DNA of 32,552 nucleotides from a virus, in IMG/VR virus record IMGVR_UViG_3300025810_000039, positions 1 through 32,552 of that record; one strand, given 5' to 3'. The notes under the pieces were generated by a model. It was given only the letters and a program-made list of their open reading frames with translations. It was not told where the DNA came from and made no database searches. Shown one piece after another: positions 23,308-28,118 of this stretch. Position numbers and translations under genes: made by a program. The stretch's first letter is position 1; every line of letters begins with the position of its first letter.

Positions 23308-23525
23308 TAGCAAGTCTCCAATTGTTCAATGTTTGGATCATAGTTTTCCTCAAGATATTTACACACTTGATTCCAGTTTGTTGGTAGGAACTCTAGATCA
23401 CCACACCAGATACCATCTTGGTTTTCGTCATTGCATACAACAGAGAAATTACTATCTTCTTCTACGACACCATAGCATAGTGTAGTACCACCATTTAGTC
23501 TTGGATAAACATAATCAGCTGTCAT
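23307..23525 (-). CDS. Small hypothetical protein
   Basis: 72 acidic residues from the ATG at 23525, with GAGG upstream; overlaps the upstream gene by 11 nt. Contains four Cys (CYG, VVCND, WCGD, QVCKY) plus a C-terminal Cys. Unrecognised. Confidence 0.62.
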   Translation of the reverse strand: MTADYVYPRLNGGTTLCYGVVEEDSNFSVVCNDENQDGIWCGDLEFLPTNWNQVCKYLEENYDPNIEQLETC

Positions 23526-23892
23526 AGTTGAACCTCGCTGCTATTTCTTGAGTGGTTGACATGACACATTTCTCGTTACGTTTGAATAGTTCAGCTTCAA
23601 TTAGATTGAGGCCAGAGAATGTGGGGTCATCAGATACAACGCGAACAACCCAGACTTCTTCACGCATTTGCACAGAGTTAGTAGTACCATCAGTGTTAGT
23701 ACCTTCATTGTTCCAGTGTCCGACACTGTGATAAGCTGTGCAGCCACCGTGAATGTTAGTGAGAAGTGTTTTAGCATCTTCAAATGTTTGTCTACCCATT
23801 GCACATGGGATATATACTTCATGCTGTGTTTTAGCATCTTCAAATGTTTGTCTACCCATTGCACATGGGATATATACTTCATGCTGATACAT
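23515..23892 (-). CDS. Hypothetical protein with 20-residue internal tandem duplication
   Basis: 125 residues from the ATG at 23892 (AAGGGATCG upstream). Residues 3-22 and 23-42 are identical, QHEVYIPCAMGRQTFEDAKT, caused by an exact 60-bp tandem repeat. Without it the protein would be 105 residues. The remainder (LLTNIHGGCTAYHSVGHWNN...) is unrecognised. Confidence 0.6.
   Translation of the reverse strand: MYQHEVYIPCAMGRQTFEDAKTQHEVYIPCAMGRQTFEDAKTLLTNIHGGCTAYHSVGHWNNEGTNTDGTTNSVQMREEVWVVRVVSDDPTFSGLNLIEAELFKRNEKCVMSTTQEIAARFNYDS
23766..23886. repeat. Exact 60-bp tandem duplication
   Basis: Two directly adjacent, identical 60-base units plus one shared base (23766-23825 and 23826-23885, with 23886 matching). 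It is in frame, adding 20 residues near the N-terminus of the 23515-23892 gene. Complete identity means a very recent event or an assembly artefact. Confidence 0.95.
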
Positions 23893-24097
23893 TTTCGATC
23901 CCTTCATACCAATGTGGTTCTGTACCAATAACAATTTGTGATATAGCGGCACAGTATACATCATCGTTTTTATTTAGGACTAGATCGTACATTGCAGATG
24001 CATGAGACCAATCTTGAGATACCTGCCAGTGATCTACAAGTGCAGGTTTGTTGTCAATTGTTTGTTTGACTTGCCATGACACAATGTACATACTCAT
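23879..24097 (-). CDS. Small hypothetical protein
   Basis: 72 residues from the ATG at 24097 (GAAGAAGAA upstream). Contains YIVSWQVKQTIDNKPALVD and SHASAMYDLVLNKNDDVYCA. Overlaps both neighbours slightly. Unrecognised. Confidence 0.62.
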   Translation of the reverse strand: MSMYIVSWQVKQTIDNKPALVDHWQVSQDWSHASAMYDLVLNKNDDVYCAAISQIVIGTEPHWYEGIENVSA

Positions 24098-25748: not shown

Positions 25749-25978
25749 GCGATGAAATTAACAAGCGCCTCTGGTGCTACAAGGTTAACTAAGACCGAGC
25801 ACACAGAGTCGCTATTCGAAACTGGCGAGATGTGGGTGTAACAGTGTGACTGGGATGCATCACCTATACGCAGTTTAATTTGTTACAGAGTCCCACTCGA
25901 CACAGTTGTAGCTGTGCCACTACCCTCGCAAGGCAGCATTGCAATTTGAAGATGCGTGATCTGTAATATAGACCACGA

Positions 25979-26143
25979 CTAGTTGTATTCCTGCTGTACA
26001 GGCAAACCTATGCTTCCATAGGATACTTTGAGTATGTAGCACTGAACACCCGAATCTGATTCTGCGATGTGCCCCACCGTGGTTATTAATCCATCGTGCT
26101 TAGGGTTCTTTTGAAGACGCAGTACGTGTACCGCTTGTTGCAT
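25979..26143 (-). CDS. Possible 54-residue protein
   Basis: 54 residues (MQQAVHVLRLQKNPKHDGLI start, then GHIAESDSGVQCYILKV). No good ribosome site, but the repeated CTGCTCTCTTCA leader element ends 25 nt upstream, as it does before two better-supported genes. Unrecognised. Confidence 0.42.
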   Translation of the reverse strand: MQQAVHVLRLQKNPKHDGLITTVGHIAESDSGVQCYILKVSYGSIGLPVQQEYN

Positions 26144-26168
26144 TTGTATTAGGACTACAACCAGATCC

Positions 26169-26211
26169 TGAAGAGAGCAGTCAGGTTAACCACAGAGGTC
26201 TGCCTGACTGC
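26169..26211 (-). promoter_or_regulatory. Leader element CTGCTCTCTTCA, copy 1
   Basis: On the minus strand a hairpin, GCAGTCAGG with CCTGACTGC (9 bp, 26203-26211 and 26177-26185), runs directly into TCTCTTCA. It precedes the possible gene at 25979-26143. One of four copies of the 12-base motif (26169-26180). Confidence 0.55.
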
Positions 26212-26330
26212 AATATTAGAACTGCCCTTTCTTCAAGGTACAATGTGTTCTAATAGAAGGGCATCTGAGTCATCCCATAGCTTACCACATTACTTTACAT
26301 AATGTACATACAGGTTTATCATCCCTGTAA

Positions 26331-26357
26331 TGAAGAGAGCAGATTAGTGTCATGCTC
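26331..26357 (-). promoter_or_regulatory. Leader element CTGCTCTCTTCA, copy 2
   Basis: Minus-strand stem GAGCA/TGCTC (26353-26357 with 26337-26341, 11-base loop) then TCTTCA. It lies just after the ancestral stop of the ssDNA-binding gene. The 26222-26272 region beyond it also contains an imperfect GCCCTT/AAGGGC hairpin. Confidence 0.55.
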
Positions 26358-26368
26358 AGGACATAGAA

Positions 26369-26527
26369 CTAGAACAGATCGCTAGCTGAACCTTGAACTT
26401 CTGTTGGCTCAATAGAACCTACAGCTTCAAAGTCTACACCGTTGCTAGGTGCATATACGATATGGTCTGTGATCTGTACAGCAGTAAGTGAACTACCCAC
26501 GCCTTTACGACCAGCTACATCATATGG
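26369..26527 (-). pseudogene. Stranded C-terminal tail of the ssDNA-binding gene
   Basis: Reading the minus strand through this copy of the repeat in the ancestral frame gives GVDFEAVGSIEPTEVQGSAS, then DLF and a stop at 26369. That is an acidic tail ending in Phe, as in T7 gp2.5 and bacterial SSB. The 98-bp duplication puts this tail out of frame with the present gene. Confidence 0.7.
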
Positions 26528-26626
26528 AAGTCTACACCGTTGTTAGGTGCATATACGATATGGTCTGTGATCTGTACAGCAGTAAGTGAACTACCCACGC
26601 CTTTACGACCAGCTACATCATATGGA
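26430..26626. repeat. 98-bp tandem duplication at the end of the ssDNA-binding gene
   Basis: Two adjacent 98-base units (26430-26527 and 26528-26625, plus one shared base) that differ at one position (C at 26445, T at 26543). Since 98 is not a multiple of 3, the event shifts the frame. The single difference suggests either time since duplication or two strain variants joined during assembly. Confidence 0.95.
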
Positions 26627-26976
26627 TATTGGAACACAATGACATTAGCTTTAGAGCCATTACCGATTGTAGTAAGCTTATCCATAGGTGTTAGGTCAGA
26701 GTTTACTACACGTACCTTACCGTTGTCTTCACCGTTAGCTTTATGTGCTTTACGTTTAAGACTAGCAGTGAACATACCTGTAGCGTCTTTGACTAATTCA
26801 CCATCTTTCCTGCGGAAGTTGATATAGTTATCCTCAAGTTCCTTGACCTTTGATTCGTCAGTAGTAGCAATCTGTAGCTCATACTGTTCAGTACCAAAGG
26901 GATTGACAGGTTTATCCAGTTTAGGATAGTTGATAGTTACATCAGTGATCTTGAAATTACGTACTTCTGTTAGCAT
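26515..26976 (-). CDS. Probable ssDNA-binding protein, tail lost by frameshifting duplication
   Basis: 153 residues from the ATG at 26976 (GGAAGG upstream). The opening FKITDVTINYPKLDKPVNPF and the beta-rich body (YELQIATTDESKV...VRVVNSDLTPMDK) resemble phage OB-fold ssDNA-binding proteins of the gp2.5/Enc34-like kind. The present reading ends GVDFHMM because of the 98-bp duplication. Without it the end would be an acidic tail closing with SASDLF, the kind that recruits polymerase and helicase partners. The leader carries hairpin H2 and the CTGCTCTCTTCA element. Function call is moderate; the frame disruption is certain in this sequence. Confidence 0.6.
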   Translation of the reverse strand: MLTEVRNFKITDVTINYPKLDKPVNPFGTEQYELQIATTDESKVKELEDNYINFRRKDGELVKDATGMFTASLKRKAHKANGEDNGKVRVVNSDLTPMDKLTTIGNGSKANVIVFQYPYDVAGRKGVGSSLTAVQITDHIVYAPNNGVDFHMM

Positions 26977-27020: not shown

Positions 27021-27049
27021 TGAAGAGAGCAGTTATATCACACATACTC
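27021..27049 (-). promoter_or_regulatory. Leader element CTGCTCTCTTCA, copy 3
   Basis: 44 nt upstream of the ssDNA-binding gene. The stem is GAGTA/TGCTC on the minus strand, where the changed base still forms a G-U wobble in RNA; on the plus strand it would be an A/C mismatch. This favours the leftward RNA as the functional strand. Confidence 0.6.
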
Positions 27050-27155: not shown

Positions 27156-27317
27156 TTATTTGAATGCTTCTATGATTACTACAATCCAGAACACAGTAGC
27201 AATTGTGAACACCTCTTTGTACCTTAAGTACCAAGGTTTGTCACCGAATGTCATCCAATGCATTAGAGATAGTAACCCATATATGAACAAAGTTAACAGA
27301 ACAATAGATGTAATCAT
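27156..27317 (-). CDS. Small two-span membrane protein
   Basis: 53 residues with two hydrophobic spans (ITSIVLLTLFIYGLLSLM and FTIATVFWIVVIIEAF) separated by a basic loop. GGAG lies 5 nt before the ATG, which is 1 bp past the upstream stop. Last of three membrane genes in a row. Could be holin-like or act on the host membrane; no family recognised. Confidence 0.62.
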   Translation of the reverse strand: MITSIVLLTLFIYGLLSLMHWMTFGDKPWYLRYKEVFTIATVFWIVVIIEAFK

Positions 27318-27318
27318 G

Positions 27319-27486
27319 TTAGCTCCAATCTACAAGAGTTGCTGAGTATAGAACAACACCTGTAATAGTTAGTATTACAAATGTTATAATAAAGAATGGA
27401 TGTGAGTGACTCATGAGTGCTGCAAGAGAAAAGAAGAAGCCTATGAGTGTCAACAAGAGACCGAGGGTTGTGTTAGATACAGACAT
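27319..27486 (-). CDS. Small two-span membrane protein
   Basis: 55 residues with two hydrophobic spans (LGLLLTLIGFFFSLAALM and FFIITFVILTITGVVLY) joined by SHSHP. The ribosome site is GGGA. Two short spans in about 55 residues fit a small holin or membrane effector, but the early-type leftward location argues for a take-over rather than a lysis role. Confidence 0.62.
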   Translation of the reverse strand: MSVSNTTLGLLLTLIGFFFSLAALMSHSHPFFIITFVILTITGVVLYSATLVDWS

Positions 27487-27488
27487 GA

Positions 27489-27602
27489 TTATCCCAACTT
27501 TCTGTTTATGTAATCAATGATAGGTGCTAGACACATTACCCCAAGTGCCGCAAGGGAAGCTACTGTACATACAGCAACGATAACTACTGCTACATCAATC
27601 AT
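27489..27602 (-). CDS. 37-residue membrane protein
   Basis: One long hydrophobic span (VAVVIVAVCTVASLAALGVM) and a short polar end (DYINRKLG). GGACAATAAT precedes the ATG, 1 bp after the DUF4258-like stop. Chain position supports it. Confidence 0.58.
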   Translation of the reverse strand: MIDVAVVIVAVCTVASLAALGVMCLAPIIDYINRKLG

Positions 27603-27603
27603 A

Positions 27604-27813
27604 TTATTGTCCTTTCCAGAATACTGTAATAACGACAGAGACATCAAGGTTAGTAACTACATACAAACCTGATCTGTTATCAATGAATGTGAACTTGTTG
27701 TTAGGATCAGTTCTGTTAGGCATCTTGTTGCCTGTTTGTAAAGCAATGAAGATATCCTGAACAGATGCTCCTCTTTGAGCTAAGCGAACCTTAGCATGTT
27801 TAGTGATATGCAT
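27604..27813 (-). CDS. DUF4258-like small protein
   Basis: 69 residues from the ATG at 27813 (AAAGGAT upstream). The pattern ITKHAKVRLAQRGASVQDI...KFTFIDNRSGLYVVTNLDVSVVITVFW matches DUF4258, a RelE-like fold seen in phage and toxin-like genes. No antitoxin partner is evident; the next three genes encode membrane proteins. The leader holds a copy of the CTGCTCTCTTCA element 28 nt upstream. A role as an RNA-cleaving or structural RelE-like protein is possible but unshown. Confidence 0.68.
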   Translation of the reverse strand: MHITKHAKVRLAQRGASVQDIFIALQTGNKMPNRTDPNNKFTFIDNRSGLYVVTNLDVSVVITVFWKGQ

Positions 27814-27841
27814 GACAGATCCTTTCTTAGATCTTTGAGAA

Positions 27842-27867
27842 TGAAGAGAGCAGTTAGAAGCTTGCTC
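27842..27867 (-). promoter_or_regulatory. Leader element CTGCTCTCTTCA, copy 4
   Basis: Minus-strand stem GAGCA/TGCTC (27863-27867 with 27848-27852, 10-base loop) then TCTTCA, 28 nt before the DUF4258-like start. Same layout as copy 2. Confidence 0.6.
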
Positions 27868-27878
27868 AGGCTGTCCCC

Positions 27879-28076
27879 TTAGAGTAACTCTTCAGGGTAA
27901 GAACACATTCTTATCTCACGACAAGACTGGTTATGTTCAGACTCTAGAAACTGATCGTAGTCTAGGTTGTCTGATACAACTTCAGCACATGTGATGTTGA
28001 CACCAAAGTGTTCGGTTTTGTTGAACTGGACGTTACTGACAGTTCCATCAGTGTTAACAGAATATGTGAAAGACAT
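27879..28076 (-). CDS. Small acidic hypothetical protein, first gene of the leftward block
   Basis: 65 residues from the ATG at 28076 with a strong AAAGGAG site. Starts MSFTYSVNTDGTVSNVQFNK and is acidic in the second half. It is first after the non-coding hub and hairpin H3, the position of immediate-early host take-over genes in T7-like phages; function is unknown. Confidence 0.65.
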   Translation of the reverse strand: MSFTYSVNTDGTVSNVQFNKTEHFGVNITCAEVVSDNLDYDQFLESEHNQSCREIRMCSYPEELL

Positions 28077-28118
28077 ATCTGGTCTCCTTTCAGGAGTTTG
28101 AGGATAACATGATTGTTA

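Follow-up and report, generated by a model that had tools for sequence, protein, structure and literature searches.

A 98-bp tandem repeat that truncates a phage ssDNA-binding protein gene is very probably a false duplication between two strain haplotypes

The gene for a probable ssDNA-binding protein (SSB) in IMG/VR virus record IMGVR_UViG_3300025810_000039 is cut short by a 98-bp tandem repeat, which very probably is a false duplication from metagenome assembly, the real gene being intact. The gene runs leftward in the window (the whole stretch of DNA analyzed, 32,552 nucleotides). Direct comparison of the two copies, which lie head to tail (Table 1), showed them to be identical at 97 of 98 positions, the sole difference being a C in copy 1 and a T in copy 2. 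Tandem Repeats Finder reported a period of 98 and 2.0 copies for 26430-26626, and at the edge of the repeat one further base matches beyond the period. The coordinates originally given for the duplication, and its one differing base, were thus correct. Such a repeat is far beyond chance, and no gap letters are present at it. A length of 98 bp is not divisible by three; the repeated sequence is therefore read in another frame the second time, and the SSB ends in HMM. If the original frame is kept beyond the repeat, the protein instead continues as ...GVDFEAVGSIEPTEVQGSASDLF, with SASDLF as its final residues, the ending also found in contigs L001-L005 of relatives. Translation confirmed both ends that had been predicted, GVDFHMM for the ORF of the contig and SASDLF, at 26369, for the original frame.

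Table 1. Coordinates of the SSB gene and of the two tandem repeats in the window.
Feature	Position	Strand	Remarks
SSB-like ORF as present in the contig	26515-26976	-	153 aa; ends GVDFHMM owing to the repeat-induced frameshift
Original 3' end, no longer in frame	26369-26429	-	...EAVGSIEPTEVQGSASDLF; stop codon 26371-26369
Copy 1 of the 98-bp repeat	26430-26527		26445 is C, as in L002-L004; protein ...PSNGVDF
Copy 2 of the 98-bp repeat	26528-26625		26543 is T, as in L001 and L005; protein ...PNNGVDF
Second tandem repeat, 2 x 60 bp	23766-23885		100% identical; in frame in ORF 23515-23964(-)

The gene probably encodes an SSB resembling gp2.5 of phage T7, an assignment made by sequence profile only. 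In a profile search, residues 12-139 of the ORF matched PHROG 112 ("Gp2.5-like ssDNA binding protein") with an E-value of 4.7e-13, which supports the function proposed for the product at the outset. The match to Pfam PF10991 (Enc34 SSB family) was weak (E = 0.0013), and its score of 18.8 bits, under the curated cut-off of 26, distinguishes the protein from Enc34 ORF6. No match was obtained when PDB sequences were searched by profile with the SSB, nor when named phages were searched at the DNA level, and the AlphaFold2 model of the intact relative L001, with a mean pLDDT of 36, was too poor for reading an OB-fold with a long helix after strand 2. Distant relatives in the Pelagibacter phages HTVC103P, HTVC104P, and HTVC115P carry the annotation ssDNA-binding protein. 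The same window encodes a single-subunit RNA polymerase, a primase/helicase, a DNA polymerase, and an exonuclease, as well as a RusA-like resolvase, a thymidylate synthase, and the terminase large subunit, so that the SSB gene is surrounded by a T7-like replication set. In its intact form, the gene would be an ordinary member of the gp2.5-like family.

A search of 2.9 million IMG/VR viral contigs, a set from which the records closest to the window's own may be absent, returned 30 relatives of the SSB with identities of 51-98%. All 30 contain the repeated stretch in a single copy and have an intact gene end, which reads DLF in 27 cases and DMF in three; the HMM end was found in none of them. 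A 25-base probe spanning the junction of copy 1 and copy 2 had no match in the 2.9 million viral contigs, among which the closest sibling records are possibly missing, and a probe placed within the 98-bp repeat matched the four nearest contigs once each. The last 19 residues of the restored tail include four D/E and no K/R; those of the relatives include 2-5 acidic and 0-1 basic residues, compared with 16 D/E of 29 in Enc34 ORF6 (PMC5686142). Judged by composition, the tail of the relatives is only mildly acidic, and its invariant part is the terminal D-L/M-F. The acidic, Phe-ended tail that had been postulated therefore stands as regards its Phe end, D-L/M-F being invariant in the relatives, and holds for acidity only in a mild form. 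Besides the profile match to PHROG 112, this conserved terminus is what the family shares with T7-type SSBs, from which the ORF of the contig differs in having lost the tail through the repeat. A role in contacting DNA polymerase and primase-helicase has been ascribed to the tail of T7-type SSBs (PMC5686142).

The mismatch between the two copies corresponds to a strain allele. Between 24725 and 27284, two of the nearest contigs, L001/L032 and L002/L034, are each identical to the window except for the duplication and one site, at which the former has T and the latter C. This only polymorphism in about 2.5 kb falls inside the 98-bp repeat, copy 1 having the base of L002 (C) and copy 2 that of L001 (T). 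Each copy thus bears one allele of the population, which indicates that the repeat joins two strain haplotypes. Two copies made within a single genome would have been identical, and any subsequent mutation would have had to fall on exactly this site and yield exactly this base. A join of two strain variants, one of three explanations offered in the original prediction, is consequently favored, both alleles of the mismatch existing as haplotypes in near-identical relatives.

We infer that the join was made during assembly and not in a phage. The sampled phage population would have comprised at least two almost identical haplotypes, with C or T at one site in this region. The contig of the C haplotype would have ended at 26527, 82 bases past the polymorphic site, and that of the T haplotype would have begun at 26528, 15 bases ahead of it. 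Had the two contig ends then been set end to end with their overlap unmerged, the 98-base overlap would be present twice, as is observed. In the actual phages, the SSB would be intact, about 169 aa long, and end in SASDLF. That the repeat removes the tail is accordingly true of the contig, and probably not of any actual phage.

False duplications of this kind, termed "heterotype" duplications and arising from divergent haplotypes, are a recognized assembly error in diploid genomes (PMC9516828). The resemblance lies in both alleles of one locus standing in a single sequence as though they were separate loci, and in copies that differ at haplotype sites. Two marks of such duplications were found here, namely, that the alleles of the copies correspond to real haplotypes and that the stretch is single copy in the independent assemblies of relatives. 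The published cases, however, are from diploid vertebrate genomes and usually have gaps between the copies, whereas here a 98-bp overlap stands without a gap in a phage metagenome contig (PMC9516828). On such artefacts in viral metagenomes, a literature search yielded nothing more specific than general benchmarks of assembly; in virome benchmarks, local misassemblies in a spiked phage genome occurred with nearly all assemblers tested (PMC6350398).

The second tandem repeat (Table 1) causes the protein encoded by its ORF to repeat QHEVYIPCAMGRQTFEDAKT. It and the 98-bp repeat are the only near-exact tandem repeats with a period of 30-500 in the 32.6-kb window, compared with none in 182.6 kb of relatives; if an equal rate is assumed, the probability of both falling in the window, calculated from the two lengths, is about 0.02. 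The 60-bp unit is present once in the relatives L001 and L026, and its junction had no match among viral contigs. Beside it, at 23665-23700, L032 differs from the window by a cluster of changes that L026 does not have, so that strain variation adjoins this second seam as well. From its sequence context, the region probably marks another assembly seam like the one proposed for the 98-bp repeat, the case for a haplotype origin being weaker because its copies show no mismatch. The lengths 98 and 60 equal 99 and 61 minus one, which are odd k-mer sizes of some assemblers; this is taken as a lead only. The idea that the duplications are common to other samples was rejected, as the junctions of neither the 98-bp nor the 60-bp repeat were matched in viral contigs.

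The SSB gene lies in a region with two further features. Over 27285-28103, identity to the nearest relatives is about 72-91%, compared with 100% before and 99-100% after this segment, whereas L005 keeps 94-98% identity over 27.2-27.8 kb; from this pattern, the segment is read as a cassette exchanged between strains. A 12-mer, CTGCTCTCTTCA, occurs four times exactly, always on the minus strand and always intergenic (26169-26181, 26331-26343, 27021-27033, and 27842-27854). Two of these copies closely precede a Shine-Dalgarno-like site and a start codon, one for the SSB gene and the other for the ORF starting at 27813, and two lie downstream of the SSB gene in a stretch of about 600 bases (25770-26368) in which no ORF of at least 60 aa is found. 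The motif recurs in many relatives, where it usually follows, at a distance of about 10 bases, a conserved CCTGAGCA block with which it can pair (GAGCA/TGCTC). No compensatory changes in this pairing were seen among the relatives, and an Rfam search with the CTGCTCTCTTCA element returned no match. The element is possibly a phage promoter, an RNA-processing site, or a regulatory element.

Among the alternatives to an assembly artefact, a real and recent lesion is the one that survives best, if it is attributed to illegitimate (unequal) crossover, with an offset of 98 bp, between co-infecting phages of the C and the T haplotype. Such an event would yield exactly the same sequence, allele pattern included, with the SSB truncated, and the phage group is visibly mosaic, the identity of the relatives switching between 27.2 and 28.1 kb. 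It would, however, require two independent tandem duplications within 3 kb, whereas none occurs in 182.6 kb of relatives; the breakpoint offers only 1 bp of microhomology; and the mutant would have to be the form that was assembled and hence dominant. Unless the tail were dispensable, the phage carrying the lesion would be rare, rescued by complementation, or dying out, and the contacts ascribed to the T7-type tail (PMC5686142) lead one to expect a tail-less phage to be unfit. Because two events in 3 kb without breakpoint homology would be needed, and because of these tail contacts, crossover is considered unlikely. That a real unequal-crossover variant, with an SSB devoid of the conserved Phe-ended tail, persists in nature appears more doubtful still, and is regarded as improbable.

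Tandem repeats of about 98 bp can arise by slippage, which is a general route to repeats of this size. Nevertheless, it is very improbable here that replication slippage duplicated the stretch within a single phage lineage and that one copy then acquired a point mutation, since the chance mutation would have had to fall on the one site that varies within about 2.5 kb and to recreate the exact base of a population allele. Furthermore, the copies share only the one base beyond the period, so that no pre-existing repeat was there to guide slippage and no flanking repeat to act as primer, and no relative shows the duplication. Of the recent lesion that had been proposed, the form involving slippage and mutation is therefore largely set aside, and the form involving crossover is retained as the unlikely option described above. 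That loss of the SSB tail has become fixed in this lineage, is tolerated, or is adaptive deserves hardly any credence: the ORF is open across the whole protein body and has kept its ribosome-binding site, which is true under every model, but relatives that are 100% identical on both flanks have an intact tail, and all 30 relatives end in D-L/M-F. Fixed tail loss was rejected, given that it was seen in 0 of 30 relatives; a tolerated change, also put forward originally, fares no better, being shown by none of these and its junction being absent from the 2.9 million viral contigs.

The assembly artefact is by far the best-supported reading. Gene-loss claims that are made from single environmental contigs call for comparison with near-identical relatives. 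Assembly seams of this kind can be flagged by short, near-exact tandem repeats in which each copy bears one allele. The SSB gene described here would illustrate cleanly how microdiversity among strains in a metagenome can make a core phage gene look as if it had lost its function.
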